Assembly: GCA_006218065.1 (NCBI GenBank)
Contig: VBWE01000044.1
Coordinates: 1 to 50,859, forward strand
Length of the DNA stretch: 50,859 bases
Direction of reading: 5' to 3'
From: Bacteroidota bacterium
Lineage (GTDB): Bacteria; Bacteroidota; Bacteroidia; Palsa-965
Shown here: positions 1,582 through 48,514 of the stretch, piece after piece
Layout: every line of letters begins with the position of its first letter
Numbering within the stretch: position 1 is the first letter of the stretch
Program-made: the position numbers and the translations under genes
Notes under the pieces: model-generated
What the model was told of the DNA's origin: nothing
The model's input: the letters and a program-made list of their open reading frames with translations, nothing else
The model's database searches: none

Positions 1582-4500
1582 CTACCGTTTTTTGTTTTTC
1601 CCGAGCAGAGTTACGTGTCCGAGGTACATGTGTTCATTTCCGGCGAAATCGTTGCACACGATTTTCCAGACATAGACATCTTCCTGCGCCATGTATTTTC
1701 CGCCGTTCGCGTGCCCATCCCAGCCCCTGTTGATATCATGCGTCTCGAAGATGAGATTACCCCAGCGGTCAAAAATGTACATCACGAAGTTATTATTGTC
1801 TATTCCAACGCCTACCGGGAAGAAGTATTCGTTCTTGCCGTCGCCGTTCGGAGTAAAACAGTTCGGCGCGAACAGGATATAATCCGGCCTGATGATTACT
1901 TCATCCGAAACCGTACTCGTACAACCGTAACTGTTGGTTACCGTGAGCGTGATAGTATATGTTCCGGTATCGGTGTAGGTGTACTGCGGATCAGCCAGGT
2001 TGGATGTGTCCGCGCTGCCCGGTGCACCGAAGTCCCACTCCCAGGTATTGTTGCCTGAAGAGCCGTCGATGAAGCTGATGGTGGAATTGACCAGTGTGGC
2101 TTCGTTCGGTGTGGGTGTAAATGCGGCTACCGGGACCGGGTACACTTCTACAAGTCCGGGCTGCACCACAACGGTTGAACAACCTTGCGCTGTAACAACG
2201 ATCAGCGTTACATCATATACACCAGCATTGTTGTACGTGTACGATGGCGTTGTTCCGCCGGCTGTTCCTGTACTGTCTCCGAAATCCCAGATGTACTGCG
2301 TTCCTATATCACTGAACGCCTGGAAGTACGTTGTCAGCGGCGCACAGCCTGCTGTATCTGTTGCACTGAAGAACGCAACCGCAGTCGGGTTCACAATGAC
2401 AACAGTCGTGTCGGATACTGCATCCGAGCAACCGTCATCGATCGTAACAATAAACACTGCCGGCGACTGGCTTGTATTTACAGTTACCGTTTGTGTCGAT
2501 CCTGTAAAGCCGTTACTCCAGGTATAAGTATAAGGTCCGCCGTTACCGCCGCCGCCGGTCGCTGTCAGTGTTGCCGTCTGGCCGTTGCAGATCGTTACCG
2601 TTGGTGATGTAACAGTAAGTGCAGGCAGTACGACAACTGTAACCGGCATAGTCGGCGACTGGCAGCCGTTCGTATCCACTACAAATACGCTGTACGTAAC
2701 GTTCGTCGTGCTGTTTACAGTAAACGGTCCGGGTGTGGTATTTCCGTTATCCCAGAAGTACTGGTATCCCGGTGTTCCGCCCTGGCCGGCTGCCCATACC
2801 TGCGTAACCTGGCCGTAGCATACGGTATCAGGCGGGCTAACCAGTACGATCAGCGGAGCGGGTTGAGTTACGTTAATTACTGCCGTTACCGTACAACCGT
2901 TTGCATCGGTGATCGTGCACGTATATGTTCCTACGCCAAGTCCGTTCGCCGTATTGCTGGTTTGGTTCGTCGGTGTCCAGTAGTAGCTGTAAGGCGGAGT
3001 ACCGTCTTTAACGATAACGGTTGCAGAGCCTGTCAGCGTACCGTTACACAGCGGTGCGCTGAAGAAAGTGGAATCGATAGCGGGAGATCCCATATCGATC
3101 ACCGTTGCCGAAACAGAACCCGTACATCCGTTCGCATCGGTAATGATGCACGTATATGTACCGGCGAAAAGATTTGCAGCGAGCTGTGTCGTTTGTGCCT
3201 GCGGATCGTTCCACTGGAAAGTATATCCCGGTGTTCCGCCCGAAACGGCCAGGTTGATTTTACCGTTGTTGCTTCCGCAGGACGCATCGGTAACAGCAGG
3301 TATCGCCGTTACAGGAGTCGGTTCTGTAATGTTGTACGAAGAGTTGAACGTACATCCGTTCGCATCGATGATCTGCAGTGCATAGGTTCCGGCTGCGAGG
3401 TTGAATGCCTGCGGTCCGCCGCTGACGTTCGGTGTCCACGAATATGTGTATCCCGGCGTGCCTCCCGATGTGTTTACCGAAACCGATCCGTTGCTTCCGC
3501 CGTTGCACGATGCATCAGTTTGAGAAACAAGCGTTGCGGTTACCTGTGTGGGCTGCGTGATGGTTGCAGTAGATGTAGCCGTACATCCGTTGGCATCTGT
3601 TATGGTAACGATGTACGATCCCTGGCAGAGTGCAGTTGCTGTCTGGCTGGTCTGTGCACCCGGATCATTCCAGGAGTACGTGTACGGTGTTGTTCCGCCG
3701 CCGGCGCCTACTGTGGCGATACCGTTACACGATCCGAAGCAGCTGGCGTCGCTCGTTGAGATAATCGCGGAGAGCAACTGTGTCGGTTCGAAAATATTTA
3801 CACTTGCCGAAGCAACGCAACCTGCAGCATCCGTAACCGTTATGGTCTGCGGTCCTGATCCGAGGTTAGTCGCGAATGCGGAAGTCTGACCGTTCGACCA
3901 GAGCAGGTTGTAAGGCTGTGCGCCGCCGCTGATGTTTGCCTGCGCAGTACCGTTGTTCGCACCGAAGCAGGTTACATCCGTAACCGGGTTGATGTTTACA
4001 ACCGGTGCAGCGATATCGTTTACGTTGGCCACACCGATCGCCGAACAACCGTTCGCATCAGTTACGGTTACCGTGTACGAGTTGCCCTGGATATTGTTTG
4101 CGCAGGAGGTAGTCTGCTGCGCAGGATCATTCCACGAATACGTGTACGGACCAACGCCGCCGATGATCTGCGCGCATGCACTTCCGTTCGCCTGTCCGCA
4201 ATTCGACGGCGAAGTGGTTGTGATGTTCACACCGAGAATAGTCGGCTCGGTAATAGCGATCTGGTTTGTTGAAGTACAACCGTTCGCATCGGTGATCGTT
4301 ACGCTGTAAGTGCCGGCGCAGAGGTTCGTAACGTTCGGCGTAGTCTGGAATGCAGGATTCCAGAGGAATGAATACGGGCCTACACCGCCGTTATAGACAA
4401 CTGTTGCAGTACCGTCGCAGGTACCGTTACAGCTTGCGTTTGTTCCGAGAATACTGGTTGTAATCGCAATCGGTTCGGTGATGGTTACTGTCGTCGTTGC

Positions 4501-7500
4501 CGAACAACCGTTCGCATCAGTTACGTTAACCGTGTATGTACCTGCGCACATATTGTTCACCGATGCGGATGACTGGTTGCCCGGCAGCCACATGAATGAA
4601 TACGGTGCAGTACCGCCTGTTGTTGTCGCTGTTGCAGAGCCGTCGCAGGCGCCTGCGCAGGAAACGTTCGAGGATTGCGAAATGCTTGCCGCAAAAATGG
4701 CAGGCTGTGTGATGGTTGCTCCTGCCATCGCCGTGCAACCGTTGAAGTCGGTTACCGTTACAGAGTACGAACCGGCGCACAAGTTACCGGCCGTCATCGT
4801 TGTTTGCGTGGAAGGATCGTTCCAGAGGTATGTGTACGGACCTGTTCCGTTGATCACTGTCGCTGTTGCCGTTCCGTTGCATGCATTATAGCAACCGACG
4901 TTGGTAACTGTTGTGTTGGCGATCATCACCGGCGGATTGGTCAGCGTAACGGTCTGAGACATCACGCAGCCATTTGCATCGGTAGTTGTTACAATGTACT
5001 GTCCTGCGGAAAGACCGGAAACAGCCGGCGTGGTTTGACCGCCCGGAGACCAGCTATATGTATAAGGAGTGGTTCCGCCGTTTACACTGATGGATGCCGT
5101 TCCGTTCGACTGACCGAAGCAGGACGGATCTGTACTGATGAGGTTTCCGGCAAGCGCGTTCGGTTCGGTGATGGTTACCGATGTTGAAGCAACGCAGCCG
5201 TTCACATCCGTTGCAGAGACGGTGTACGTTCCTGCGGTAAGGTTTGTCGCGGTGCCTGTGGTCTGCGCATTGCTCCATACGTATGTGTATGGCGCTGTTC
5301 CGCCGTTCACGCTGATCGTCGCATTACCGTTGTTGCCGCCGTTACACAGTACATCGACCTGCGAAGCGATTGACGCTACAGGACCTGCAAGGTTGGCGAT
5401 GGTAACGCCGATCGTTTGCGAGCATCCGTTGGCATCCGTTACAGTAACGATATAAGTACCTGCTGCAAGTCCGTTTACGCCGGGCGTCGTTTGTCCGCCG
5501 GGATTCCACAGGTATGTGTAAGGCTGAGTGCCGCCCTGTGCAGTCACTACTCCGCTGCCATTCGACTGGTTACAGTTTGCATCAACATGTGTTTCCGTGA
5601 GGACGATGCCGCCGGGCTGCGTGATATTTACAGTTGCGGTAATCGAACAACCGTTGATATCGGTAATCACGCAGGAGTATGTTCCGATGCCCAGGCCGGT
5701 AGCTGTTGGTGTAGTCTGGTTGCTCGGCGACCACAGGTAAGCATACGCGCCTGTGCCTCCCGACGGGTTAACCGTAGCCGATCCGTTGGATGCGTTATTA
5801 CAGTTTACGTTGACCTGCGTGCTGGTGTACGTGATGGCTGTCGGTTCAGTAATCGTTGTTGTTGCAGAAGAAGTGCATCCGTAAGTATCCGTAACGTTCA
5901 CGGTATAAGTTCCCGGAACAAGGTTGGTCGCTGTTGATGTGCTCTGGTTACCGGGCTGCCAGTTATACGTGTACGGCGGGTTGCCGCTGATCGAAACAGT
6001 TGCCGATCCGTTGCCCACTCCGAAACAGCTCACGTTGATCGAAGAAGAGATCACCGCTGTGCCGCCGGTATTCTGGCCGACGTTTACTGTTGCTGTCGTG
6101 GCGCAGCCGTTGGCATCCGTAACGTTCACCGTGTAGCTGCCTGTCGGAATATTCGATGCGGTAGATGTTGTTTGCCCGCTCGGGTTCCAGGAATATGTAT
6201 ACGGTCCTACACCGCCGCTGACAACAACCGAAGCCGATCCGTTCGATGCGGTGCAGGTTGCGTTGGTTGAAGAAGTAACCGTGCTGAGTACAAGCGGTTG
6301 CGTCAAAGAAGTGTTTGTCGCTGTTACGCATCCGTTCGCATCCGTGATCGTGCAGGTGTACGAACCGGCTGTGAGACCTGATGCAGTTGATCCTGTTCCG
6401 CCACTCGGTGTCCAGTTGTAGCTGTACGGACCCGTACCGCCGGTTACCGAAACCGTGATGGCTCCATTGCTGCCTGCGTTGCAGGTAATGTTTGTCGAAC
6501 TGGTGATCGAACTTGCAAGAACAGCAGGTTCTGTAATCGTTACTGTGATCGTTGTCGAACACGCGCTTGCATCCGTAATCGTACAGGTGTATGTTCCTGC
6601 GGCGAGTGCGTTGGCCGTAGGCGCAGAACCGCCCGACGGAGCCCAGCTATATGTGTACGGCAATGTGCCGCCGGACATGCTTACTGTTGCCGATCCGTTG
6701 CTGCCACCGTTGCACGATACGTTTGTAACAGACGCTATGGAAGCCGTACCGCCGGAAATATTATTGATTACCCCGGAGCCGTTTACCTGGCAACCGTTTC
6801 CATCGGTAACTATTACGTTGTATGCACCGGCTGACAAACCGGTAACCGTTGCTGTTGTCGCACCGCCGGGGGACCAGAGATATGTGTACGCCGGCGTACC
6901 TCCGCCGGCAGCTACAGAAACCTGGCCGTTAGGTTGTCCGCAGGTAGTATTCACTGCGGTAACCGTTGCGGTAAGTTGTGTCGGCTGCGTGAGTGTAACG
7001 GAAGCAGTGATTGTACAACCGTTTGCATCCGTTGCGGTAACCGTGTATGATCCTGCAGTCAGGCCGGTTGCGTTCTGCGTCGTTTGTCCGCCGGGGTTCC
7101 AGGAATACGTGTAAGGTGATACACCGCCGGTAACTGTAACTCCTGCCGTTCCGTTGTTTCCGCCGAAGCAGTTCACATTGGTCAGGGATGTTGTTGCAGA
7201 AAGCGCTGTCGGTTGCGTGATGCTTACCGTGCTTGTCGTTGTACAGTTGTTGATGTCGCTGATCGTTACCGTATAACTGCCTGCAGTAAGACCTGTGGCT
7301 GTTGTTGATGAACCGCCGGCTGGTGTCCATGTGTACGTGTAGCCCGGTGTTCCGCCGCTTGCAGTTACCGTAGCCGAACCGTTGTTTCCTGCATTGCAGG
7401 ATACCGGTGTGCTTGCCGTGATGGATGACGTAAGCAGCGTAGGTTCTGTAATTGTAACAGTGGCTGTCGTGGCACAACCGACTCCGTCTGTAACGGTTAT

Positions 7501-9180
7501 CGTGTAAGTGCCGGCTGTCAGGTTTGTTGCGGTTGCAGCTGTTCCGCCGCTCGGTGTCCAGGCATATGTATAAGGTAAAGTACCACCGACCATAGTTGCC
7601 GTAGCCGAACCGTTGCTTCCGCCGTTGCAGGTTACCGGGGTAGAAGCGGTGATCGAAACGTTACCGCCGGATATGTTGGAGATGTTTGCGGTATTGCTGG
7701 TTGTACAACCGTTGCCATCTGTAACGGTAACGGTGTAGTTACCGGCCATGAGGTTGATCACTGTAGCGGTTGTTTGCCCGCCCGGAGCCCAGAGGTATGA
7801 ATACGGTAAGATACCACCTGATGCTGTTACCGAAACCTGTCCGTTCGCCTGTCCGCAGTTTGAACTTACCGATGAAGTTGTGGTGCTGAGCAGGGCCGGT
7901 TGCGTGATGTTGAATGTAGCTGTGTTCGTACATCCGTTCGCATCGGTAACCGTGCAGGTGTATGTGCCTGCATTCAGGTTCGTTGCTGTAGCCGTCGTTT
8001 GTCCGCCGGGGTTCCAGGAATAAGTATAAGGTCCTGTACCGCCGCCCGCGTTAATTGTTGCAGAACCGGTTGATCCGCCGCTGCAGACTACGTTAACCTG
8101 TGATGAAACGAGCGAAACCGCCGTCGGTTGTGTAATGCCGACGGTGCTGGTTGTTGTACAACCGTTGATATCCGTAATGGTAACGGTGTAGTTTCCGGAG
8201 ATCAATCCCGTCGCAGTTGCTGCGGCACCTCCGGACGGAGTCCAGTTGTAGTTATATCCGGGCGAACCACCACTTGCAGATACGGTAGCTGTTCCGTTGT
8301 TACCCCCGTTACAGCTTACCGGTGTGGAACCTGTGATGGTTGAAGTAAGCGCGGCCGGCTGGGTGATTGTGCAACCAACAGCATCGGTAACGGTTACAGT
8401 ATAAGTTCCTGCAGTAAGGTTATTGGCTGTAGTTCCTGTTCCGCCGCTGGGCGACCATCCGTAAGTGAACGGACCAGTGCCGCCGGACATGGTTACAGTA
8501 GCTGAACCGTTGGTGCCACCGAAGCACAACACGTTTGTCGAAGCAGAAATACTTGCCGTGCCGCCGGTAAGGTTGCTCACTGTAGCTGTAGCAGTAACGG
8601 TACAACCGTTTGCATCAGTAACTGTTACAGTATAAGTTCCTGCAAGCAAACCGGTAACAGACGAAGTGGTCTGTCCGCCGGGCGCCCAGAGGTATGAGTA
8701 AGCAGTCGTTCCACCGGAAGCAGTAACCGAAACCTGTCCGTTTGCCTGTCCGCAGTTGGTATTCACTGCGCTTGCTGAAGCGGTAAGTTGTGTGGGCTGC
8801 GTGATGTTGAATGTTGCCGTAGTGGTACAACCGTTTGCATCGGTGATGGTGCAAGTGTATGAACCAGAAGCAAGACCTGATGCAGTTGAGGTTGTTTGTC
8901 CTGACGGATTCCAGAGATAGGTGTAAGCCGGGGTGCCGCCGCTTGCATTCACAGTAGCCGAACCTGTGGTTGCTGCGAAGCAGGTAACGTTAACCTGTGA
9001 AGTTGTTGCAGTAAGTGCAGTGGGTTGTGTGATGCTGACCGTACTTGTTGCAGTACAACCGTTGATGTCTGTGATCGTTACAGTGTATCCGCCTGCTGTA
9101 AGTCCGCTTGCGGTGGATGATGCACCGCCGCTGGGCGCCCAGTTGTAAGTATATCCGGGCGAACCACCGCTTGCAGACAC
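1582..9180 (-). CDS. Giant SprB-repeat adhesin, C-terminal part with T9SS type B sorting domain (downstream of a frameshift)
   Basis: About 2,530 residues. The first ATG in this frame lies inside a repeat and there is no signal peptide; the frame stays open and homologous up to the junction near 9247, so this is the back half of the 9197-15796 gene. It contains about 28 SprB-type repeats of about 76 residues (pattern CNGGNNGSATV...GGTxPYTYxWxP...GTYTVTVTDANGC...ITQP). Two PKD domains with WDFGD-like cores follow at roughly residues 2250-2430. The last 90 residues are a gliding-motility-associated type B tail: FTPNGDGKNEYF, then IFDRWGNLIFE, then GWDGxxNGG and a final basic KNKKR. In F. johnsoniae, SprB with this tail is a mobile cell-surface gliding adhesin secreted by T9SS with help from SprF. 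If the frameshift is real, this half would not be exported. Confidence 0.9.
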   Translation of the reverse strand: MSASGGSPGYTYNWAPSGGASSTASGLTAGGYTVTITDINGCTATSTVSITQPTALTATTSQVNVTCFAATTGSATVNASGGTPAYTYLWNPSGQTTSTASGLASGSYTCTITDANGCTTTATFNITQPTQLTASASAVNTNCGQANGQVSVTASGGTTAYSYLWAPGGQTTSSVTGLLAGTYTVTVTDANGCTVTATATVSNLTGGTASISASTNVLCFGGTNGSATVTMSGGTGPFTYGWSPSGGTGTTANNLTAGTYTVTVTDAVGCTITQPAALTSTITGSTPVSCNGGNNGTATVSASGGSPGYNYNWTPSGGAAATATGLISGNYTVTITDINGCTTTSTVGITQPTAVSLVSSQVNVVCSGGSTGSATINAGGGTGPYTYSWNPGGQTTATATNLNAGTYTCTVTDANGCTNTATFNITQPALLSTTTSSVSSNCGQANGQVSVTASGGILPYSYLWAPGGQTTATVINLMAGNYTVTVTDGNGCTTSNTANISNISGGNVSITASTPVTCNGGSNGSATATMVGGTLPYTYAWTPSGGTAATATNLTAGTYTITVTDGVGCATTATVTITEPTLLTSSITASTPVSCNAGNNGSATVTASGGTPGYTYTWTPAGGSSTTATGLTAGSYTVTISDINNCTTTSTVSITQPTALSATTSLTNVNCFGGNNGTAGVTVTGGVSPYTYSWNPGGQTTQNATGLTAGSYTVTATDANGCTITASVTLTQPTQLTATVTAVNTTCGQPNGQVSVAAGGGTPAYTYLWSPGGATTATVTGLSAGAYNVIVTDGNGCQVNGSGVINNISGGTASIASVTNVSCNGGSNGSATVSMSGGTLPYTYSWAPSGGSAPTANALAAGTYTCTITDASACSTTITVTITEPAVLASSITSSTNITCNAGSNGAITVSVTGGTGPYSYNWTPSGGTGSTASGLTAGSYTCTITDANGCVTATNTSLTQPLVLSTVTSSTNATCTASNGSASVVVSGGVGPYTYSWNPSGQTTSTASNIPTGSYTVNVTDANGCATTATVNVGQNTGGTAVISSSINVSCFGVGNGSATVSISGNPPYTYNWQPGNQSTSTATNLVPGTYTVNVTDTYGCTSSATTTITEPTAITYTSTQVNVNCNNASNGSATVNPSGGTGAYAYLWSPSNQTTPTATGLGIGTYSCVITDINGCSITATVNITQPGGIVLTETHVDANCNQSNGSGVVTAQGGTQPYTYLWNPGGQTTPGVNGLAAGTYIVTVTDANGCSQTIGVTIANLAGPVASIASQVDVLCNGGNNGNATISVNGGTAPYTYVWSNAQTTGTATNLTAGTYTVSATDVNGCVASTSVTITEPNALAGNLISTDPSCFGQSNGTASISVNGGTTPYTYSWSPGGQTTPAVSGLSAGQYIVTTTDANGCVMSQTVTLTNPPVMIANTTVTNVGCYNACNGTATATVINGTGPYTYLWNDPSTQTTMTAGNLCAGSYSVTVTDFNGCTAMAGATITQPAIFAASISQSSNVSCAGACDGSATATTTGGTAPYSFMWLPGNQSSASVNNMCAGTYTVNVTDANGCSATTTVTITEPIAITTSILGTNASCNGTCDGTATVVYNGGVGPYSFLWNPAFQTTPNVTNLCAGTYSVTITDANGCTSTNQIAITEPTILGVNITTTSPSNCGQANGSACAQIIGGVGPYTYSWNDPAQQTTSCANNIQGNSYTVTVTDANGCSAIGVANVNDIAAPVVNINPVTDVTCFGANNGTAQANISGGAQPYNLLWSNGQTSAFATNLGSGPQTITVTDAAGCVASASVNIFEPTQLLSAIISTSDASCFGSCNGIATVGAGGGTTPYTYSWNDPGAQTSQTATALCQGSYIVTITDANGCTATSTATITQPTQVTATLVSQTDASCNGGSNGSVSVNTSGGTPGYTYSWTPNVSGGPQAFNLAAGTYALQIIDANGCTFNSSYNITEPTPVTAIPAVTDASCGSNNGKINLAVSGGTPGYTFQWNDPQAQTTQLAANLFAGTYTCIITDANGCTGSVSATVIDMGSPAIDSTFFSAPLCNGTLTGSATVIVKDGTPPYSYYWTPTNQTSNTANGLGVGTYTCTITDANGCTVTAVINVTQPAPLIVLVSPPDTVCYGQVTQVWAAGQGGTPGYQYFWDNGNTTPGPFTVNSTTNVTYSVFVVDTNGCQSPTMPVTVVVLPALTVTSPTVTICNGQTATLTATGGGGNGGPYTYTWSNGFTGSTQTVTVNTSQSPAVFIVTIDDGCSDAVSDTTVVIVNPTAVAFFSATDTAGCAPLTTYFQAFSDIGTQYIWDFGDSTGTAGGTTPSYTYNNAGVYDVTLIVVTAQGCSTVVVQPGLVEVYPVPVAAFTPTPNEATLVNSTISFIDGSSGNNTWEWDFGAPGSADTSNLADPQYTYTDTGTYTITLTVTNSYGCTSTVSDEVIIRPDYILFAPNCFTPNGDGKNEYFFPVGVGIDNNNFVMYIFDRWGNLIFETHDINRGWDGHANGGKYMAQEDVYVWKIVCNDFAGNEHMYLGHVTLLGKNKKR
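8312..8350. repeat. 39-nt identical repeat next to a short in-frame deletion
   Basis: These 39 bases are identical to 9209-9247. Just after base 8350 the SprB unit lacks 5-6 codons: it reads DAVGC directly into TITQP, where sister units have TTTATVTITQP. The spacing of equivalent landmarks (8561 to 7664) is 897 bp instead of about 912. Confidence 0.75.
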
Positions 9181-9196
9181 GGTAGCCGTTCCGTTG

Positions 9197-12100
9197 TTAC
9201 CTCCGTTGCAGCTTACCGGTGTGGAACCTGTGATGGTTGAAGTAAGCCGTTGTTGTACATCCGCCGACAGTTGTTACTGTTACGGTGTAAGTTCCTGCGG
9301 TCAGGTTTGTTGCTGTCGCAGCGGTTCCGCCGCTCGGGGCCCAGGCATATGTATAAGGAGTAACGCCGCCGCTGGCTGTAACGGTTGCACTGCCGGTACT
9401 TCCGCCGTTACAAAGAACAGGAGAAGAACTTGCAGATGCCGTTACCGCGGTCGGCTGAGTGATTGTTACTGTTGCCGTGGCGATGCAGGAAGATGCATCG
9501 GTTACGGTTACCGTGTACGTTCCTGCAGCCAGGCCCGAAGCTGTTGCAGCGGTTCCGCCGCTGGGTGTCCAGGCGTATGTATAAGGAGAAGTGCCTCCGC
9601 TTACGTTAACCGTAGCCGAACCGTTTGTTCCGCCGTTGCAGGTTACGTTTGTCGAAGCAGAAATAGTTGCCGTGGGGCCCGAAGTATTGTTTACTGTAAC
9701 AGTATTTGTTGCCGTACAACCCGAAGCGTCGGTCGTGGTTACTGTGTAAGATCCGGCGAGCAGGCTTGATGCTGTTGTGCCTGTTCCACCGCTCGGCGCC
9801 CACAGGTATGTGTAGCCGGGGTTACCGCCGCTCACGCTCACGCTTGCCGATCCGTTCGAGTTTCCGCAAGTGGCATTGGTGCTGCTCATGGTCAGCGTCA
9901 TGCCTGTGGGTTGTGTGATGGTAACTGTCGCAGTGCCCTGGCATCCGACACCGTCGGTGATTGTAACGGTGTATGTACCGGCAGTAAGGTTGTTTGCTGT
10001 TGCGCCTGTTCCGCCGCTCGGTGTCCAGTTGTACGAGTAAGGTGCGGTTCCGCCCGAAGCCGTTACTGTAGCCGATCCGGTGTTGCCGCCGTTGCAGGTT
10101 ACGTTCGTAGATGAAATGGTTCCGGTTACCTGCGTCGGCTGCGTAATGGCAACCGTTGCCGTACTCTGGCACCCGGAGGCAGTGGTAACTGTTACTGTAT
10201 AGTTTCCTGCAGCAAGTCCGGTTGCGCTTGCACCTGTACCGCCGCTCGGCAGCCAGTTGTAAGTATAAGGAGATGTTCCTCCCGCGGCGCTTACCGATGC
10301 GGAACCGTTCGTTCCTCCGAAGCAGGTTACGTTATTGGATGAAGTAACCGTAACAGTCGCAGAACCGGTATTCGCTACGTTGACTGTTTGTGTTGCGGTA
10401 CATCCGGCGGCATCTGTGATCGTGCAGGTGTAATTGCCTGCTGCGAGGCCGGTAGCTGTTGCGCCTGTTCCGCCGCTCGGCGCCCACGAATATGTATAAC
10501 CGGGCGTACCGTTGCTTGGCGTAACCGTAGCAGAACCGTTATTGCCTCCGCAGTTTGAGTTCGTTGAACTTGCTGTGCTTGTGATCTGCGTAGCCTGCGT
10601 GATGTTGAAGGTTCTTGTGGTTGTACAACCGTTAGCGTCGGTGATGGTAACAGTGTACGAACCGGCTATAAGTCCTGTTGCTGTTGAAGCAGTACCGCCG
10701 CTGGGCGCCCAACTGTATGTGTACGGGCTTGTTCCGCCGCTTGCCGTAACTGAAGCAGAACCTGTCGATCCTCCGAAGCAAACTACGTTTGTCTGAGAAC
10801 TTGTTGCTGTTACTGCGGAAGGCTGGGTGATGGTGAGCGTTTGTGTTGCGGTACATCCGCCGGCACCGGTGATTGTTACCGTATATGTTCCCGCTGCGAG
10901 GCCTGTAGCTGTTGCACCTGTTCCGCCACTCGGTGTCCAGTTGTAAGTATAAGGACCTACGCCGCCACTTGGGGTAACCGTAGCAGAACCTGTTGATCCG
11001 CCGTTACACAATACGTTTGTATGGGCTTCTGTGGAAGTAATTGCAGTCGGCTGCGTAAGCGTTACCGTCGCAGTGGATGTACATCCGCTGGCAGTAGTTA
11101 CAGTAACCGTGTAAGTTCCCGCAACCAGGCCGGTTGCACTCGAACCTGTTCCGCCGCTCGGTGTCCATGCGTACGTATAAGGAGTAGTTCCGCCGCTGGC
11201 TGAAACAGTTGCTGTTCCGTTATTTCCGCCGAAGCAGGTAATGTTCGTTGAAGAAGTAATCGTTACAGTCGCAGAGCCGTTGTTGATGACCGTTGCTGTT
11301 TGTGTAACTGTACATCCGCCGGCTCCTGTTACAGTAACTGTATACGTTCCTGCCCCGAGACCGGTGGCTGTCGCACCCGTTCCGCCGCTGGGCGCCCAGG
11401 AATAAGTATACGGACCGACACCGCCGCTCGCGGTAACGGTTGCTGTTCCGTTGTTACCGCCGCAGTTCGAATTGGTCGTTACTGTTGTGGCAGAAAGTGC
11501 GGTGGGTTGTGTGATGGTAATTGTGCGCGTAGTAGTACAACCGTTTGCATCGGTGATGGTAATGGTATACGTTCCTGCTGCGAGACCTGTAGCTGTTGCG
11601 CCTGTTCCGCCGCTGGGCGACCAGCTGTACGTATAAGGACTGATTCCGCCGGAAGGAGTAACCGTTGCAGAACCCGTTGCTCCGCCGTTACAGGCTACGT
11701 TTGTCTGGGCTGTTGTTGCACTTACCGGGGTGGGTTGCGTGATGGTTACTGTTTGTGTTGTTGTACATCCGCCTGCGCCGGTTACTGTGCAGGTATATGT
11801 TCCTGCCGCGAGACCGGTAGCTGTTGCGCCTGTTCCGCCGCTGGGTGTCCAGTTGTAAGTATAAGGACCGACGCCTCCGCTCGGGGTAACCGTTGCAGAA
11901 CCTGTTGATCCGCCGTTACACAAAACGTTTGTATGCGCTTCCGATGTAGTGATCGCGGTGGGTTGTGTAAGTGTAACGGTTGCCGTTGATGTACATCCGC
12001 TCGCTGTTGTTACGGTAACAGTATATGTTCCGGCAACGAGTCCTGTTGCACTCGTTCCTGTTCCGCCGCTCGGTGTCCAGGCGTACGTATAAGGAGTGGT

Positions 12101-15100
12101 TCCGCCGCTGGCTGAAACAGTTGCCGTTCCGTTATTACCTCCGAAGCAACTGATGTTTGACGAAGAAGTAATCGTTACAGTCGCAGAACCGTTGTTGATA
12201 ACCGAAACGGTTTGTGTCGTTGTACATCCGCCGGTGCTTGTAACAGTAACGGTATATGTGCCTGCTCCGAGACCGGTAGCTGTTGCACCTGTTCCGCCGC
12301 TGGGCGCCCACGAATACGTATAAGGACCGACACCGCCGCTGGCTACTACGGTTGCTGTTCCGTTGTTACCGCCGCAGTTTGCGTTGGTTGACGAAGTTGT
12401 TGCAGAAAGCGCCGTGGGTTGTGTGATGGTGATCGTTCGTGTGATCTGGCAACCGTTTGCATCGGTGATAGTAACCGTGTACGAACCTGCTGAAAGACCT
12501 GTCGCAGAAGAACCTGTTCCACCGCTGGGCGACCAGCTGTATGTATAAGGACCAACGCCGCCCGAAGGTGTAACTGTTGCAGAGCCTGTTGCTCCGCCGT
12601 TACACGTTACGTTTGTTTGTGCGGTTGTTGCCGTGATGGCCGAAGGCTGTGTAATGCTGAATGTTTGCGTCCGGGTACAACCGTTTGCATCCGTTACGGT
12701 AACGGTATATGTATTTGCAGTAAGGTTGGTTGCGGTAGAACCTGTTCCGCCGCTGGGCGCCCACGAATAAGTATACGGTCCCACACCGCCGCCGACTGTA
12801 GCAGTAGCCGATCCGTTGTTGCCGGCATTACATGAAACGTTCACCTGGCTGGGTGTAATCGTAAGCAGGGGCGGCTGTGTGATGGCCACTGTTGCCGTAG
12901 ATGTACAACCGTTCGCTGTAGTTACTGTAACGGTGTAAGTACCAACCCCGAGTCCCGTTGCTGATGCACCGGTACCTCCGCTGGGTGTCCATGCGTATGT
13001 GTAAGGTGTTGTTCCGCCGCTTGCCGTAACTGTCGCGGAACCATTGTTGCCCCCGTTACAGCTTACATTCGTGGATGAAGAAATCGTAGCTGTTGCTGCG
13101 CCGATATTCGTGATCGTAACGGTGCGTGTAATTGTACAGCCGTTGGCATCCGTTACTGTTACGGTGTAGGTTCCCGCGCCGAGACTGCCCGCCGTTGCAC
13201 CCGTTCCGCCAGAAGGAGCCCAGGAATACGTATAAGGCGATGTTCCGCCGCTGGGCGTAACTGTTGCAGATCCGTTATTGTTTCCGCAGGTTGCCGTAGT
13301 GGTGCTGGTCGTTGCTGCAAGTGCGGGCGGTTGCGTGATGTTGTATGTTCTTGTGATCGTACAACCGTTCGCATCCGTAACAGTAACAGTATAAGTACCT
13401 GCACAGCGGCCGGTCGTAGTTGCACCGGTTCCGCCGCTGGGCGCCCACGAATACGTATACGGTCCGACACCGCCTGCCGGCGTTACTGTCGCAGAACCTG
13501 TACAACCACCGTTACAGAGCACGTTGGTCTGCCCGCCTGTTGTGGATAATGCGGGCGGCTGTGTAATAGTGATGGTTCCTGTGGCTGTACAACCGTTTAC
13601 AGATGTAACCGTTACGGTGTATGTTCCTGGGGGACGGTTGGTCGTGGTTGCACCGGTTCCGCCGCTGGGCGTCCAGTTGTAGGTGTAGCTTCCGCCGGGA
13701 GTAACGGTTGCTGTTGCAGAGCCCGTGCTTCCGCCGTTACAAAGTACGTTCGTACCTGTGACTGTTACTGTCGGTGTGGGGTAAATGGTAATTGCCTGTG
13801 TATAGGTCGAGGTACAGGAACCTTGCGTAGTAGTGAGCGTAACGGTATATGTACCTGCTGTGCTCCAGGTTACGCCAGTCGGGTTTTGTGCCGTGGAAGA
13901 TGGCGGAGTACCGCTGGGGAAGGTCCACGCATATGTAACACCGACGCCGGTTGTACCGGTATTGGTGAAGCTGAAACTGTTCCCGGATAAACACTGGTTG
14001 GCAACCGGCGCAAAACTGGCCGTTACCGATCCTGAAGTGGCTACCGTAACTGTGGTTGTACGGATACAACCGTTGGCATCGGTTACAGTTACCGTGTACG
14101 ATCCTGCGAGAAGCCCTGTTGCAGAAGATCCTGTACCGCCGCTCGGCGCCCAGCTGTAGGTATATCCCGGTGTTCCGCCTGTTGCGGTTACCGTTCCCGA
14201 ACCGTTCGCCTGTCCGCAGGTTGCTGCCGTTGAAGACGGCGTAAGACTTATCTGTGTCGGTTGTGTGACTGTAATGGTTTGTTGCGTGGAACAGCCGGAG
14301 CCGTTTGTAGCGGTAACCGTATATGTTCCTGCCGCAAGGCCGGTTGCTGTCTGGTTCGTTCCGCCGCTCGGCGCCCAGCTGTAAGTATAAGCTCCCGCCG
14401 GGTTCGGTGTGATGGTTGCCGAACCGTTGGTGCCGCCGAAGCAGCTCACGTTGGTATGACTCTGCGTCGAGGTCGGGCCTGCAACAGTAAAGTTGATGCA
14501 CGCAGGAGGTCCGACGTTGCCGCAAAGATCGGTTACCGATCCGGAAGCATTCGTAAGACAAAACGTGTACGTTCCCGCAGCAGTTAAAGCGGGACTGACG
14601 GTCATGGTAAATGTGTTGTCATACGTCGCACCGGAAGAACATCCCGCGGAAGTCCAGCCGGAAACAGTGTAAGGTCCACCGGGACCGGTCAGTGCGAAGT
14701 CGCCGTTCTGTACCGTATTGCAAAGAATATTTTCATCGAAATTAAACGTGATCGTAGTCGAACCACAGGTTGGTGTCGGGACAAATGACAAAAGGTTCGG
14801 CGGGTTGTTATCGAAAATCTGTGCGGTAGATGATCCGAAGTTGATCGTGTAACCGTTCTGCGAAGAAGAGAAGTTGGAAACGTTGATCACATACGTCTGT
14901 CCGGCAACAACGGGAACAACCACGTTGTTCTGTCCGCCGCAGGGGCCGGTTGTATTGTTGTTCGGTCCCGTGGTTCCGCCGCAGCCCAGGTTGGCAGAAA
15001 AGTTACAGCTTACTTCCAGGCCGGCATTGGTATAAATATCAGAGCAGTTGTTGTTGGTCAGGTTGTAAACGGCCCAGTCGTAATCTTCCGTTCCTACGTT

Positions 15101-15796
15101 CGGTGTGATGGTGAAGTTCAGGTTACCGCTGGTTTGTACGGTGAAAGTGTACCATACGTCGTTCAATTCACCGGCACCGAGACAGGAAGGGCCGGAGTTG
15201 ATCTCGTTCAAGATATTTCCTTGGCCGACATACGAAGTTGTTGTAGAGTAAGTATTCTGACAAATCGGAATCGCGCCGAGACAGTCCTGGGTATTCGGAA
15301 CGGGAATAGTAACGCAGAGCTGTCCTGTACCGACGTTGTTATTGCCGTAATCCCACACCATGATGAAAACGGTGGATCCGGGCGTGAGCCCCGTAAAACC
15401 GAGCTGGGGCATAAAACCCGGGCCGCTGTCGTCGTCGCAGCCAAGCAATGTGAGCGAACTGCATGAACCGGTATAAACGGCCATGCCGCAGTCGGTCAGT
15501 GTGCCCGCAGTCGTCTGCAGGTTGATTGCGCCGCCGGCAGGAACGGTGACGGAATACCAGATATCACCACCGCTGAATGACGCGCAGCCCGGGGCAGGAA
15601 CGCCCGGGGCAAGTGTCGCTCCCGTGTTGTTGAACGTGGTATTGACACAACTGGCGCTTGCTGTCAGTGGTGTCGCGCTGCACGGGTTATCATTGGCCGG
15701 TTGTGCAAATGCCGGGAATGATAAAAGCAGTGCGAAAAAACCAGGAAAAAAATTCCGGATTTTCTTTCGTGAAAAAGTGCGTAGCGATTGTTTCAT
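9197..15796 (-). CDS. Giant SprB-repeat adhesin, N-terminal part (ends at a frameshift)
   Basis: About 2,199 residues. Residues 1-31 are a signal peptide ending PAFAQ. Residues 32-175 and 176-340 look like two pre-peptidase/jelly-roll type domains (GGDIWYSVTVPAGG; NDVWYTFTV). Residues 345-455 resemble an SbsA-type Ig-like domain. SprB-type repeats follow, interrupted at about residues 555-650 by a PKD-like domain. The last residues (AYFNHHRFHTGKLQRR) are out of frame; shifting frame there restores LTSTITGSTPVSCNGG and leads straight into the 1582-9180 frame. The two together span 14,215 bp, one more than a multiple of three. It starts 33 nt after the stop of the small gene at 15830-16168, so both are probably one transcript. 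Role: exported cell-surface adhesin, possibly for gliding or attachment. Confidence 0.9.
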   Translation of the reverse strand: MKQSLRTFSRKKIRNFFPGFFALLLSFPAFAQPANDNPCSATPLTASASCVNTTFNNTGATLAPGVPAPGCASFSGGDIWYSVTVPAGGAINLQTTAGTLTDCGMAVYTGSCSSLTLLGCDDDSGPGFMPQLGFTGLTPGSTVFIMVWDYGNNNVGTGQLCVTIPVPNTQDCLGAIPICQNTYSTTTSYVGQGNILNEINSGPSCLGAGELNDVWYTFTVQTSGNLNFTITPNVGTEDYDWAVYNLTNNNCSDIYTNAGLEVSCNFSANLGCGGTTGPNNNTTGPCGGQNNVVVPVVAGQTYVINVSNFSSSQNGYTINFGSSTAQIFDNNPPNLLSFVPTPTCGSTTITFNFDENILCNTVQNGDFALTGPGGPYTVSGWTSAGCSSGATYDNTFTMTVSPALTAAGTYTFCLTNASGSVTDLCGNVGPPACINFTVAGPTSTQSHTNVSCFGGTNGSATITPNPAGAYTYSWAPSGGTNQTATGLAAGTYTVTATNGSGCSTQQTITVTQPTQISLTPSSTAATCGQANGSGTVTATGGTPGYTYSWAPSGGTGSSATGLLAGSYTVTVTDANGCIRTTTVTVATSGSVTASFAPVANQCLSGNSFSFTNTGTTGVGVTYAWTFPSGTPPSSTAQNPTGVTWSTAGTYTVTLTTTQGSCTSTYTQAITIYPTPTVTVTGTNVLCNGGSTGSATATVTPGGSYTYNWTPSGGTGATTTNRPPGTYTVTVTSVNGCTATGTITITQPPALSTTGGQTNVLCNGGCTGSATVTPAGGVGPYTYSWAPSGGTGATTTGRCAGTYTVTVTDANGCTITRTYNITQPPALAATTSTTTATCGNNNGSATVTPSGGTSPYTYSWAPSGGTGATAGSLGAGTYTVTVTDANGCTITRTVTITNIGAATATISSSTNVSCNGGNNGSATVTASGGTTPYTYAWTPSGGTGASATGLGVGTYTVTVTTANGCTSTATVAITQPPLLTITPSQVNVSCNAGNNGSATATVGGGVGPYTYSWAPSGGTGSTATNLTANTYTVTVTDANGCTRTQTFSITQPSAITATTAQTNVTCNGGATGSATVTPSGGVGPYTYSWSPSGGTGSSATGLSAGSYTVTITDANGCQITRTITITQPTALSATTSSTNANCGGNNGTATVVASGGVGPYTYSWAPSGGTGATATGLGAGTYTVTVTSTGGCTTTQTVSVINNGSATVTITSSSNISCFGGNNGTATVSASGGTTPYTYAWTPSGGTGTSATGLVAGTYTVTVTTASGCTSTATVTLTQPTAITTSEAHTNVLCNGGSTGSATVTPSGGVGPYTYNWTPSGGTGATATGLAAGTYTCTVTGAGGCTTTQTVTITQPTPVSATTAQTNVACNGGATGSATVTPSGGISPYTYSWSPSGGTGATATGLAAGTYTITITDANGCTTTRTITITQPTALSATTVTTNSNCGGNNGTATVTASGGVGPYTYSWAPSGGTGATATGLGAGTYTVTVTGAGGCTVTQTATVINNGSATVTITSSTNITCFGGNNGTATVSASGGTTPYTYAWTPSGGTGSSATGLVAGTYTVTVTTASGCTSTATVTLTQPTAITSTEAHTNVLCNGGSTGSATVTPSGGVGPYTYNWTPSGGTGATATGLAAGTYTVTITGAGGCTATQTLTITQPSAVTATSSQTNVVCFGGSTGSASVTASGGTSPYTYSWAPSGGTASTATGLIAGSYTVTITDANGCTTTRTFNITQATQITSTASSTNSNCGGNNGSATVTPSNGTPGYTYSWAPSGGTGATATGLAAGNYTCTITDAAGCTATQTVNVANTGSATVTVTSSNNVTCFGGTNGSASVSAAGGTSPYTYNWLPSGGTGASATGLAAGNYTVTVTTASGCQSTATVAITQPTQVTGTISSTNVTCNGGNTGSATVTASGGTAPYSYNWTPSGGTGATANNLTAGTYTVTITDGVGCQGTATVTITQPTGMTLTMSSTNATCGNSNGSASVSVSGGNPGYTYLWAPSGGTGTTASSLLAGSYTVTTTDASGCTATNTVTVNNTSGPTATISASTNVTCNGGTNGSATVNVSGGTSPYTYAWTPSGGTAATASGLAAGTYTVTVTDASSCIATATVTITQPTAVTASASSSPVLCNGGSTGSATVTASGGVTPYTYAWAPSGGTAATATNLTAGTYTVTVTTVGGCTTTAYFNHHRFHTGKLQRR
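9209..9252 (-). other. Frameshift junction within the giant adhesin gene
   Basis: At 9247/9248 the repeat 9209-9247 joins directly to the Cys-rich part of the previous unit, and about 26-29 bp coding for the expected TVTITQPTA segment are missing. Landmarks at 8561 and 9675 are 1,114 bp apart, where five 228-bp units would give 1,140. Adding 26 or 29 bp restores one frame for the whole gene. Confidence 0.8.
10356..13092. repeat. 912-bp higher-order repeat (four SprB units)
   Basis: Equivalent landmark bases in the NNGSATVTITSS-type spacer fall at 10356, 11268, 12180 and 13092, three intervals of exactly 912 bp (304 residues, four units of 76). Within each block the four units keep the same order of subtypes (for example SNISCFGGNNG, HTNVLCNGG, QTNVACNGG, TNSNCGGNNG). 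Confidence 0.8.
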
Positions 15797-16578: not shown

Positions 16579-17520
16579 ATGAAAATAACCGTAGTAGGCG
16601 CCGGCAACGTAGGCGCTACATGCGCCGATGTTATTGCGCACAAAGAACTGGCCAACGAAGTAGTGCTGGTCGATATCAAAGAAAACTTTGCTGAAGGAAA
16701 AGCGCTCGACATCTGGCAGACAGCGCCCGTCAACATGTACGATACGCGCCTCCGCGGCTCCACGAATGATTATTCGAAAACGGCCGGATCGGATGTTGTG
16801 GTCATTACTTCCGGGCTTCCGCGCAAACCCGGCATGAGCCGCGATGATCTTATTTCAACCAATGCGGCGATCGTAAAAAGCGTGACCGAACAGGTGGTGA
16901 AATATTCGCCTGATACGATCATCATCGTGGTATCCAACCCGCTCGATGTAATGACGTATTGCGCATACCTCACCGCGAAAATCGATCCTTCGCGCGTTTT
17001 CGGTATGGCCGGCGTACTGGATACTGCGCGTTACCGTGCATTCCTCGCCGAAGCGCTCAACTGCTCACCCAAAGACATCCAGGCTGTACTGATGGGCGGC
17101 CACGGCGATACGATGGTTCCGCTTCCGCGCTATACAACAGTCGGCGGAATCCCGGTTACCGAACTCATCGATTCCAAAGCGCTCGACGCCATCGTCGACC
17201 GTACGAAAAAAGGCGGCGGTGAAATCGTGAACCTGCTCGGCACTTCGGCCTGGTATGCTCCCGGCGCTGCTGCCGCACAAATGGTAGAAGCCATCGTGCG
17301 CGACCAGAAACGTATTTTCCCCGTTTGCGCATGGCTGCAGGGCGAATATGGCCTGAACAATATTTACATGGGCGCACCCGTGAAACTCGGCCGCAAAGGA
17401 ATCGAGCAGATCATCGAACTCAAACTCAATACCGCCGAAATGCAACTCGTAAACGATTCTGCAAAAGCGGTAAAAGAAGTCATGAGCGTACTCGACGGTA
17501 TGAATACGACTACCGCTTAA
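16579..17520 (+). CDS. mdh: Malate dehydrogenase
   Basis: 313 residues, the usual length for the LDH-like bacterial malate dehydrogenase; it interconverts malate and oxaloacetate with NAD in the TCA cycle, in the cytosol. The NAD-binding GAGNVG is at residues 7-12, with Asp32 at the end of the second strand, which favours NAD over NADP. The substrate loop LPRKPGMSR (80-88) has Arg82 and Arg88. Asp148 and Arg151 in GVLDTARYR and the catalytic His175 in GGHGDTMVP complete the active site; Arg82 marks malate rather than lactate specificity. It stands alone, with a terminator hairpin after it. Start at ATG 16579 fits the beginning of the first strand (MKITVVGAG). Confidence 0.97.
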   Translation: MKITVVGAGNVGATCADVIAHKELANEVVLVDIKENFAEGKALDIWQTAPVNMYDTRLRGSTNDYSKTAGSDVVVITSGLPRKPGMSRDDLISTNAAIVKSVTEQVVKYSPDTIIIVVSNPLDVMTYCAYLTAKIDPSRVFGMAGVLDTARYRAFLAEALNCSPKDIQAVLMGGHGDTMVPLPRYTTVGGIPVTELIDSKALDAIVDRTKKGGGEIVNLLGTSAWYAPGAAAAQMVEAIVRDQKRIFPVCAWLQGEYGLNNIYMGAPVKLGRKGIEQIIELKLNTAEMQLVNDSAKAVKEVMSVLDGMNTTTA

Positions 17521-20435: not shown

Positions 20436-20684
20436 TCAGGTATCGCTTTTGTCTTCGGCAATTTCATCCACGAAAAATGTTTTCCCGTCGAGCGAACCGG
20501 ATGCCGTTACTTTTTTCCCGAGCCATGTTTCGAAAAACTTTCCCATGAACGGATTTTCCCCCGGCTTGCGCAGGATGTAGCTGTCCGTGGCGGTTTTCAG
20601 CAGGAAAGCCGCATGCTCGCTTTTCGAACCTTTGAAAACGGTGTCGCGGATAACCGTGCCGGTAAGTTTTTTATTTGCGCTCAT
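20436..20684 (-). CDS. Small protein of unknown function, overlaps the C25 protease gene
   Basis: 82 residues, no signal peptide. The pattern KLTGTVIRDTVFKGSKSEHA, LKTATDSYILR, LGKKVTASGSLDGKTFFVDEI suggests a small all-beta barrel such as an OB-fold: a closing strand after a GKKV-xxxGxL turn is typical. This is a fold guess only. Its ATG at 20684 lies 14 nt inside the end of the protease gene (stop at 20671), so the two are very probably co-translated and may work together. No family recognised. Confidence 0.7.
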   Translation of the reverse strand: MSANKKLTGTVIRDTVFKGSKSEHAAFLLKTATDSYILRKPGENPFMGKFFETWLGKKVTASGSLDGKTFFVDEIAEDKSDT

Positions 20685-22170
20685 ACAAACGGACGATTAT
20701 ATCGTCGCCGGTTTCTTTGAAAACAAGAATCCGCGGATGATGTTTTTTCCTGCCTGCGTGTTTCTTTTCCAGGTAAAAATAATGTTTTTCATTCCCCGTT
20801 TTTTTGTTGCCGAAGCTGAAAGCCACGGAAGAAAAATCGCGGAAACCGAGCTGCCTGACCAGCGGCGAAAAAAGTTTATGGCGCCCGGCGGAAATTTTCA
20901 CGGTTTTTCTTTTCGGCAGTTCGGTCGAATCGCCGACGCGGTTGCCGTTTTCATAAAGCTGTTTGCGGCGCGCTTTCCGGTACGCGTTTATTTCGGATTC
21001 GCTGACGTACCTGAGTTTCCCTTTTGCAAATACGGTTGTTGTCCGTTCATGGTCCACCAGGTGAAGCGACGGATCACCCAGCAGCAGGAACTGCATGATC
21101 GTTTTCAGCTCCACCGCATCGATGCGCGGTCCCGAAACGTTGATGAATTTCTGCCGCGCTTCAAGAAAAGCCCGCCCGGTGGAATACCCTTTCAGCACGT
21201 TGATCACGAAATACTGGGTGATCAGGTCGGCGCCGCCCTGGCCTTCGGTCGGACCATAGGCCACGGTGGTGCTGCCCACGTAAGCCACGGCGTTCTGCAG
21301 CAGGTACTTGTTCGATATGCTCATGTCCTGGCCCTGCGCCTGGTCGAAAAGCTCGGCGCCGTAGCAGCATTCCGCCGCGACAAAAGTTCCAGGCTTCAGT
21401 TTTTTATCCAGGAAAGCCGAAGAAAAAGCGACCGGGTAATCGTCGCCGTCCTGCCCGTAAAAACGGGAATCACGCAAACCGCCGTGACAATTGAAAAAAT
21501 GCACGCGCGTTTGGTTCAGCTGCCCTTTGGCGGGCGGACTGATAAGCAAACCGGACGTGCTGCTGAAAATATTCGCCACCGAAACAGAGGAAGAAGCGAT
21601 CCATTCTTTGGCCGTAACCGCAAGCCAGTCGGCATAATCTTTCCGTTTCAGCTTTTGGGTCCCGGCGATGTTATCGATAAGCCTGGTGAGATAGGTGTGA
21701 TCCCTGCCGCCGGTGATGTCCGGCACCCGCCCGATGACGCGGGTAGGAGCGAGAAAATTCCGCCCGTCGCGCGAATACCCGTAATCGGAAGCATACGGCA
21801 GATCGCTGTCGATGATGGTACCGTCCTCGTCGTTGGTGAGATTCGTGAGCTTGATGTGCGGAACCACATCGCGCGCGCCGAGCAATAACAGGTAATCGGG
21901 TTTGAAGTAGCGGAATATTTTGTCGACAGTGTCTTTATTCTGATGGCCGTTGCTTGCCGAGCGGACAGGAACGGCGCCGTATTTTTTCACAGTGGCATCG
22001 TCGAGATAAACTAATTTCGTGGTCATGCCCCGGGCGGCGTCGGCGGCAATAAAATTTGCAAGACTGTTCTCGACCAACGAAAAATTGACGCCGTATTTTT
22101 TGCGCAGTGCGGATTTGTTCGTGACAATAATTTTATCGACAGTTGCCATAGCATGAAGAGTTTGTTTCAT
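20671..22170 (-). CDS. Cytosolic gingipain-like cysteine protease (peptidase family C25)
   Basis: 499 residues. The caspase/gingipain fold is clear: an N-terminal sub-domain with PDYLLLLGARDVVPH (91-105) and SDLPYASDYGY (122-132), then a catalytic His229 in FFNCHGG and a catalytic Cys at 268 or 269 in FVAAECCYGA. Helices and strands after it (AYVGSTTVAYGPTEGQGG, GRAFLEARQKFI, FLLLGDPSLHL) match C25 ends. Known C25 enzymes (gingipains, PorU) are exported, with signal peptides and long C-terminal tails; this one has neither, so it should act inside the cell. A start at Met8 is possible instead of Met1. It overlaps the small gene downstream. Target and trigger unknown. Confidence 0.85.
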   Translation of the reverse strand: MKQTLHAMATVDKIIVTNKSALRKKYGVNFSLVENSLANFIAADAARGMTTKLVYLDDATVKKYGAVPVRSASNGHQNKDTVDKIFRYFKPDYLLLLGARDVVPHIKLTNLTNDEDGTIIDSDLPYASDYGYSRDGRNFLAPTRVIGRVPDITGGRDHTYLTRLIDNIAGTQKLKRKDYADWLAVTAKEWIASSSVSVANIFSSTSGLLISPPAKGQLNQTRVHFFNCHGGLRDSRFYGQDGDDYPVAFSSAFLDKKLKPGTFVAAECCYGAELFDQAQGQDMSISNKYLLQNAVAYVGSTTVAYGPTEGQGGADLITQYFVINVLKGYSTGRAFLEARQKFINVSGPRIDAVELKTIMQFLLLGDPSLHLVDHERTTTVFAKGKLRYVSESEINAYRKARRKQLYENGNRVGDSTELPKRKTVKISAGRHKLFSPLVRQLGFRDFSSVAFSFGNKKTGNEKHYFYLEKKHAGRKKHHPRILVFKETGDDIIVRLYERK

Positions 22171-26430: not shown

Positions 26431-26610
26431 TGGCAGTTTACCGGTTTGCAGTTTACCGTTTGCAGTTTACCGGTTTGCAGTTTACCGTTTGCAGTTTACC
26501 GTTTGCAGTTTTGGTATTACAGGGACGTCGTCAAAATCTGCGTACTCCTTGTTTAAACAAGTCGAACTGCCAATTGCTAACTGCAAACGGTAAACGAGTT
26601 CCATTCCGAC
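26431..26610 (+). repeat. Dispersed structured element, copy A
   Basis: The left arm, 26431-26510, is about six copies of a 14-15-bp word (TTTGCAGTTTACCG). It is followed by a core at 26511-26539 (starting TTGGTATTACAGGGA), then a 12-nt palindrome TTGTTTAAACAA (26549-26560), then inverted copies of the arm words (AACTGCCA 26565-26572; CTGCAAACGGTAAAC), and an end GTTCCATTCCGAC (26598-26610). The core matches copy B at 27 of 29 bases. It lies between the His-rich gene and a lipoprotein gene, in no open frame that looks coding. Confidence 0.75.
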
Positions 26611-33441: not shown

Positions 33442-33450
33442 TATTTACTC

Positions 33451-33583
33451 CTTTCCACAATCCCCTTTCCACAATCCCCTTTCCACAATCCCCTTTCCAC
33501 AATCCCCTCACAATCCCCTTTCCACAATCCCCTTTCCACAATCCTCTTTCTACAATCCCCTTTTCATAATCTCCTTTCCACAG
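33451..33583. repeat. 14-bp tandem array, about 10 units
   Basis: The unit CTTTCCACAATCCC is repeated perfectly from 33451 to 33506. One shortened unit follows (CTCACAATCCC, 33507-33517), then more copies that become less exact toward 33583 (CTTTCTACAATCCC, CTTTTCATAATCTC). It has no spacers, so it is not a CRISPR array. Confidence 0.85.
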
Positions 33584-39483: not shown

Positions 39484-39701
39484 GAAACTGTTAGAATAAA
39501 TTATTGTACCCGTCGAACAGGTGGATGTACGCTCAACTCCGGGCAGGCGCGATAGATTCTTTGTATCTGCTACCCGAATACCATGATATTAATTTAAACC
39601 TCACCCGGAAGACTCCGGCTTTTCCTGTTAATCATCGTTATAAACGTTGTTGTCCGGTTTTTGTCCGGGGTCCCGATTCTTATTTCCGGTCGCTTACAGG
39701 T

Positions 39702-39709
39702 TAGTTTTG
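39702..39709 (+). promoter_or_regulatory. -7 box for the second adhesin operon
   Basis: TAGTTTTG fits TAnnTTTG and ends 30 nt before ATG 39740. It excludes the earlier in-frame ATG at 39647 as a start. Confidence 0.6.
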
Positions 39710-39739
39710 CCCCGCTTTAACTACAGACCCGTAGCAATT

Positions 39740-47482: not shown

Positions 47483-47497
47483 TAAACAGTGAATTCA

Positions 47498-47543
47498 TTC
47501 TCCTGCTGCGGTTTCGGTAACTATCCGGGCTGCAGCAGGAGAA
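47498..47543 (+). promoter_or_regulatory. Intercistronic hairpin between the adhesin and PorP/SprF genes
   Basis: TTCTCCTGCTGC (47498-47509) pairs perfectly with GCAGCAGGAGAA (47532-47543), loop of 22 nt. An A-rich run and the next start codon follow, with no T run, so it is not a terminator on this strand. It could stabilise or cut the mRNA and set the ratio of the two proteins. Confidence 0.65.
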
Positions 47544-47558
47544 CAAAAAAATAAAAAA

Positions 47559-48500
47559 ATGAAAAAGTACATCAGCATCGCGATCTTCATTGTGGGAGGC
47601 CTCCTGCTTACGCCGGGATTATATGCACAGCAGGATCCGCAGTTTACGCATTATATGTACAATACGCTGTCCGTAAACCCGGCTTACGCCGGAAGCCGCG
47701 GACTGCTGAACATCAGCGCGCTTCACCGCCAGCAATGGATCGGCCTGGATGGTGCGCCGATGACACAAACCGTTTTTGTACACAGCCCGCTGCGCAACCG
47801 CAAAATGGCCCTCGGTTTTTCGGCGGTGAACGATCGTATCGGTCCGCTCAACCAGACTTTCCTTTACGGAGATTATTCGTACACCGTGAAACTGACGGAA
47901 CTGCTCAGACTTTCTTTCGGTGTGAAAGCCGGCGTACACTGGTTCCAGCCGAAAATTTCCACGCTCAGCACCATTGCTGCCAATGATCCCTCATTCGTCA
48001 ACAGCACGGTAGAAAATACGATCAAACCGAATGTCGGCGGCGGAATTTACCTGCATCACGAAAACTGGTACTTCGGAGCCAGTTCGCCGCGTATGATCGA
48101 GAGTAATTTCAACCTGGGCAACAGCTCTTCCGGCGATACGACACAGATCAGGGAACTGCGTCACTATTTCTTTATCGCGGGCGGCATATTCCCGGTAAGT
48201 CCGGCCATTAAACTCAAACCGACGGCGAAACTGAAAATGGTGCAGAACGCGCCGTTTTCTATCGATGCGACCGTGGAAGCGTTGCTGGATAATCGCTTTT
48301 CCATCGGCGCCGGTATGCGGCTGAATGATTGTTTTTACGGGATGGTGGGATACCAGTTCTCCGATCAGTTTAAAGCAGGCCTGTCGTATGATTTCAGCAC
48401 GACAAAAATTCAGAAAGTCAGCAACGGCACGGTGGAAATCATGCTCAGTTATGATTTCCTGTTCAATAACAACAAACTGAAATCACCGCGTTATTTCTAA
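47559..48500 (+). CDS. PorP/SprF family T9SS outer membrane protein
   Basis: 313 residues with a signal peptide (MKKYISIAIFIVGGLLLTPGLYAQ). The family start QDPQFTHYMYNTLSVNPAYAG is unmistakable, followed by a HRQQWIGLDGAP segment and a beta-barrel pattern to the end. In F. johnsoniae, SprF is required for secretion of SprB, and PorP/SprF homologues pair with proteins carrying type B tails. It lies 76 nt after the giant type B adhesin and 14 nt before the OmpA/TPR gene, so a dedicated partner for that adhesin is the best inference. Confidence 0.95.
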   Translation: MKKYISIAIFIVGGLLLTPGLYAQQDPQFTHYMYNTLSVNPAYAGSRGLLNISALHRQQWIGLDGAPMTQTVFVHSPLRNRKMALGFSAVNDRIGPLNQTFLYGDYSYTVKLTELLRLSFGVKAGVHWFQPKISTLSTIAANDPSFVNSTVENTIKPNVGGGIYLHHENWYFGASSPRMIESNFNLGNSSSGDTTQIRELRHYFFIAGGIFPVSPAIKLKPTAKLKMVQNAPFSIDATVEALLDNRFSIGAGMRLNDCFYGMVGYQFSDQFKAGLSYDFSTTKIQKVSNGTVEIMLSYDFLFNNNKLKSPRYF

Positions 48501-48514
48501 ATCAGCATAACTGC

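Follow-up and report, generated by a model that had tools for sequence, protein, structure and literature searches.

Gene organization

The window spans contig C72 in full (50,859 bp); the draft genome to which it belongs totals 5.26 Mb, distributed over 81 contigs. The two large open frames described in the earlier note are present at 1582–9180 and 9197–15796. Both lie on the minus strand. ORF1 (9197–15796, 2199 aa, ATG start) encodes the N-terminal part of a giant SprB-repeat protein with a signal peptide (MKQSLRTFSRKKIRNFFPGFFALLLSFPAFAQ), an N-terminal domain, PKD and 22 SprB repeats, followed by a final stretch of 16 out-of-frame residues. The C-terminal part, ORF2 (1582–9246, minus strand), contains further SprB repeats, two PKD domains and a CHU_C / Bac_Flav_CTERM type B sorting domain of the type IX secretion system (T9SS). 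ORF2 was called at 1582–9180 (2532 aa) from a mechanical GTG start; its open frame reaches back to 9273, and the homology to the repeats begins at approximately 9246. PF13573 (SprB repeat) matched ORF1 at 22 stretches (E 9.9e-195) and ORF2 at 27 (E 1.2e-239). The sorting domain at the end of ORF2 (1615–1869, minus strand) scored 47.3 bits for CHU_C (cut-off 27) and 49.4 bits for TIGR04131 (cut-off 35). The start of ORF1, judged by hydropathy and by eye and not with a predictor, has the features of a Sec signal peptide: a KK/R region, a hydrophobic core FFALLLSFPAFA (hydropathy 2.13) and an AFA-Q cleavage-like site. A start with a signal peptide of its own for the downstream half, which had been named as an observation that would speak against a split gene, was looked for near the beginning of ORF2, and no credible one was found; the only hydrophobic stretches, weak ones, lie within PKD regions near its far end and were rejected as candidates. 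As assembled, signal peptide and sorting domain are not in a single open frame, the frame being broken at around 9247.

Five genomes from a sister genus, which belongs to the same family, contain orthologues of the locus. Their proteins of 789–820 aa share 64–66 % identity with the N-terminal domain of ORF1, and their genes adjoin a malate dehydrogenase gene divergently, as in the window, where the malate/lactate dehydrogenase gene (16579–17520, plus strand) serves as the conserved synteny marker; the dehydrogenases are 86–87 % identical. In each of the five orthologues, one open frame holds the N-terminal domain together with a C-terminal stretch that aligns with the end of ORF2, the PKD/CHU_C region being 34–38 % identical across approximately 330 aa. 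These syntenic one-frame orthologues strengthen the reading of ORF1 and ORF2 as one gene. Together with the domain matches they bear out the earlier proposal of a single gene whose first half carries the signal and whose second half carries the T9SS tail. The gene, of approximately 14.2 kb, codes for one adhesin-like surface protein with SprB repeats and a type B T9SS tail, a new member of a well-known kind, with a combined length of approximately 4,740 aa when both frames are counted. A search of genome contigs for the junction sequence from the same species or genus yielded distant relatives only, and viral contigs yielded none.

The next SprB gene, in tandem to the split gene, is cut by the contig end (1–1385, minus strand), and its frame continues on contig C40 through a 53-bp overlap. 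Joining the starts of C72 and C40 gives a frame of 2308 aa with a CHU_C (type B T9SS) tail; this left-edge gene is therefore cut by the contig end only and is whole once both contigs are joined. A PorP/SprF-like carrier was not seen adjoining the split gene, whose downstream side runs into C40. The PorP_SprF gene of the window (47559–48500) adjoins a different CHU_C giant gene. It is part of an operon-like set (39647–50749) that is similar in layout to porP-porE of type B cargo and consists of a PKD/CHU_C giant of 2611 aa, the PorP/SprF carrier and an OmpA/PD40 protein (48515–50749). Elsewhere in the window, two tandem arrays of 14-bp units are located between larger open frames, one at 33450–33582 (unit CCTTTCCACAATCC, 9.7 copies) and one at 26433–26511 (unit GCAGTTTACCGTTT, 5.5 copies), and the gene at 20671–22170 (minus strand) encodes a protein with a partial Peptidase_C25 (gingipain-type) match in residues 263–371.

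Position and size of the frame break

The coding signal passes to the +1 frame within 9239–9268 (minus strand). In windows of 45 nt, codon log-odds strongly favoured the ORF1 frame as far as the window that ends at 9239 (+16.1); from 9238 on they favoured the +1 frame just as clearly (+17.3), which places the switch in the codon-preference windows 9268–9209. On the protein level, ORF1 reads ...GGCTTTA and continues with the non-homologous YFNHHRFHTGKLQRR up to its stop, while the homologous sequence resumes in the other frame as LTSTITGSTPVSCNGG..., so that the continuation of the protein across the junction, as formerly reported, was found again. Repeat homology and codon signal place the break at the same point, approximately 9247, within the overlap of the two frames (9273–9197). 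Among the parseable linkers of both ORFs, the cysteine-to-cysteine spacer is nearly always 24–25 aa long. Given this near constancy, 26 or 29 nt of the SprB-repeat linker are lacking at the break, in agreement with the 26–29-bp loss first estimated. Neither a simple-sequence tract nor a homopolymer or short tandem tract is present at 9247. Downstream of the break the ORF2 frame runs for 7.7 kb without a stop and with undisturbed codon usage, thus any real lesion would have to be very recent.

The 39-bp exact repeat at the break

Three features had escaped the earlier note: the location of the break at the edge of an exact repeat, a second short linker in the same gene, and breaks in two other SprB genes. 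The longest exact repeat of the gene measures 39 bp and occurs on the minus strand as copy A (9209–9247), whose upstream edge is the break, and as copy B (8312–8350), 897 bp downstream. This spacing equals 299 codons, and the break lies upstream of both copies. Downstream of the edge, the copies remain identical at 27–30 of 30 positions for approximately 90 bp, then the identity drops toward the background of the array. The linker at copy B is in frame, but with 19 aa it is shorter than the usual 24–27 aa, corresponding to an in-frame loss of approximately 18 nt at the same linker position. SprB linkers measured 22–28 aa in nearly every parsed case, and the only two anomalous linkers of the gene are those at copies A and B; in-frame linkers below 22 aa were absent from the 20 control genes.

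Across 96 nt, five differences separate the copies, all of them at third codon positions, and no amino acid is changed. The synonymous nature of these five changes indicates that the reading frame stayed under selection after the copies arose; a real break would hence be younger than the copies. A frameshift born with the copying event itself was rejected on the same grounds. The coincidence of break and repeat edge was not accepted as proof of an artefact, since any exact match necessarily stops where one copy has an indel, and the coincidence is partly built in. While this much is trivial, it is not trivial that the longest exact repeat of the gene is the one concerned, yet this is no proof either.

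Other SprB genes and contig ends

A profile derived from the split gene was used to search 30 stretches of this genome for SprB-like units, and 38 open frames with such units were present in the stretches read. Three of 280 neighbouring unit pairs were separated by an out-of-frame break, one each on contigs C72, C18 and C43. The break on C18 (contig position ~75634) affects a second SprB gene and lies approximately 580 bp from the contig end; the SprB frame after the break runs on into C17, whose end overlaps that of C18 by 59 bp and which carries the CHU_C tail. A third SprB gene is affected on C43 (contig position ~46649), approximately 480 bp from the contig end, and here the break coincides precisely with the end of an exact repeat of 59 bp, the second copy of which forms the contig terminus. 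In the controls, 20 SprB genes chosen from a list of strong hits in 13 single-contig and 4 near-closed genomes, none of 309 neighbouring pairs was broken out of frame. The excess of breaks in this assembly over the controls is suggestive only and not significant alone (Fisher p = 0.11). Among relatives, nearly all of them draft assemblies, one of 266 pairs was broken (contig C56 of one relative).

A comparison of the termini of nearly all contigs revealed, N-masked contigs aside, no end overlap (dovetail) above 59 bp and several of 53–59 bp, a pattern suggestive of de Bruijn assembly at a k of around 60. Of approximately 79 contig breakpoints, five independent ones fell inside SprB arrays, whereas the share of these arrays in the genome predicts 1.1 (rough Poisson p = 0.005). 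The pairs C72/C40 and C18/C17 each represent two halves of one SprB gene, with exact overlaps of 53 and 59 bp, respectively. Breakpoints concentrated in the arrays and SprB genes split between contigs mark the SprB family as the part of the genome in which the assembly is least reliable.

Origin of the frame break

We consider it rather probable that the frame break at ~9247 is an assembly error and that the gene is continuous in the cell itself; new biology is probably not involved. A de Bruijn assembly with short k may have dropped 26 or 29 nt from a linker between repeats, just where the 39-bp repeat has its upstream edge, nucleotides that would still be present in the cell. This reading is favoured by the recurrence of breaks in the assembly and their absence from the control pairs, by the enrichment of contig breakpoints in SprB arrays, by the position of the break where the longest exact repeat begins and by the restriction of anomalous linkers to the two copies of this repeat. 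The open 7.7 kb of ORF2 with intact codon usage, together with copies that differ synonymously only, and the five sister-genus orthologues holding both ends in one frame point in the same direction. Against it, the 39 bp of the repeat fall below the largest k apparently used, about 60, so that good coverage should have resolved them, and the break on C72 is 9 kb away from a contig end, unlike those on C18 and C43, both at less than 600 bp. Of the two origins left open by the earlier note, artefact or true lesion, the artefact is thus the better supported one through recurrent breaks and contig ends, on circumstantial evidence that does not amount to proof.

A recent loss of linker DNA in the sequenced lineage or in a part of the population, through slippage during replication or inexact recombination among the SprB repeats, is possible, if somewhat doubtful. 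The sequence as deposited shows the gap, and SprB arrays are prone to slippage; the in-frame loss at copy B is an example of such a deletion that became fixed, unless it is itself an artefact. A real deletion is at odds with the lack of decay downstream, with the intact control pairs and with the two further breaks in the same assembly, both close to contig ends. Translation would end 16 codons past the break, and the tail-less product would not be sorted to the surface. T9SS cargo without the C-terminal domain is expected to remain periplasmic and not to be secreted. In a sprF mutant an unexported SprB fusion stays protected from external protease inside the cell (PMC12635249). The earlier note had expected a real break to lead to a secreted protein without its sorting tail. 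Taken as a habit of the species, the three out-of-frame linker deletions might form a silent stock of giant adhesin genes that recombine with intact neighbours and vary the surface, a highly unlikely reading.

A phase-variable switch, considered in the earlier note, would turn the gene on and off, either through slippage that can be reversed or through recombination of repeat copies. The 39-bp direct repeats at 897 bp distance in a repeat-rich family would suit such a switch, but the break has no homopolymer or short tandem tract on which slippage could act. Recombination between the 39-bp copies was rejected as a switch: both copies are downstream of the break and their spacing is a multiple of three, thus a crossover deletes repeats in frame and the frame stays broken. 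With no slippable tract at the break and no frame-restoring recombination between the 39-bp copies, phase variation is very improbable. Still less credence is given to a programmed +1 ribosomal frameshift that joins both frames and turns the gap into merely a shorter linker. The frames do overlap and the shift is +1, but inspection by eye of ACA ACG GCT TAC TTC revealed no known +1 signal (an SD followed by a hungry codon or an in-frame stop), and the remaining SprB genes read through in one frame. Moreover, the linker would be approximately 9 aa short, a length absent among the in-frame linkers of the controls.

The assembly error, if it is one, is chiefly a warning that frame breaks and contig ends can interrupt giant SprB-repeat genes in draft genomes of Bacteroidota. 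Adhesin counts, apparent pseudogenes and 'tail-less' T9SS cargo derived from such drafts can mislead, as exemplified by the left-edge gene. A true lesion, on the other hand, would offer a natural test of the fate of giant T9SS cargo that has lost its sorting domain.

Comparison with known systems

A literature search for frame breaks in SprB genes as such retrieved no paper. The break resembles indels in repetitive genes of short-read assemblies in its position at an exact-repeat edge, in the contig ends within the same family and in the number of genes hit. It differs from them in that the break of the split gene does not adjoin a contig end. The sister-genus proteins have the same N-terminal domain, PKD/CHU_C C-terminal region and divergent neighbour as the split gene, but they are encoded in one frame of 789–820 aa without the long SprB array, compared to ~4,740 aa here. 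The long array was either gained in this lineage or lost in the sister genus, a large change in size between genera.

SprB of Flavobacterium johnsoniae is a giant repetitive gliding adhesin and a type B cargo of the T9SS (PMC9143113, PMC12635249), and cargo of this type is anchored by PorP/SprF-like proteins (PMC9143113). The split gene shares with SprB the signal peptide, the long PF13573 arrays and the C-terminal CHU_C / TIGR04131 type B domain. In contrast to SprB, its downstream neighbour is another SprB gene and not sprF.
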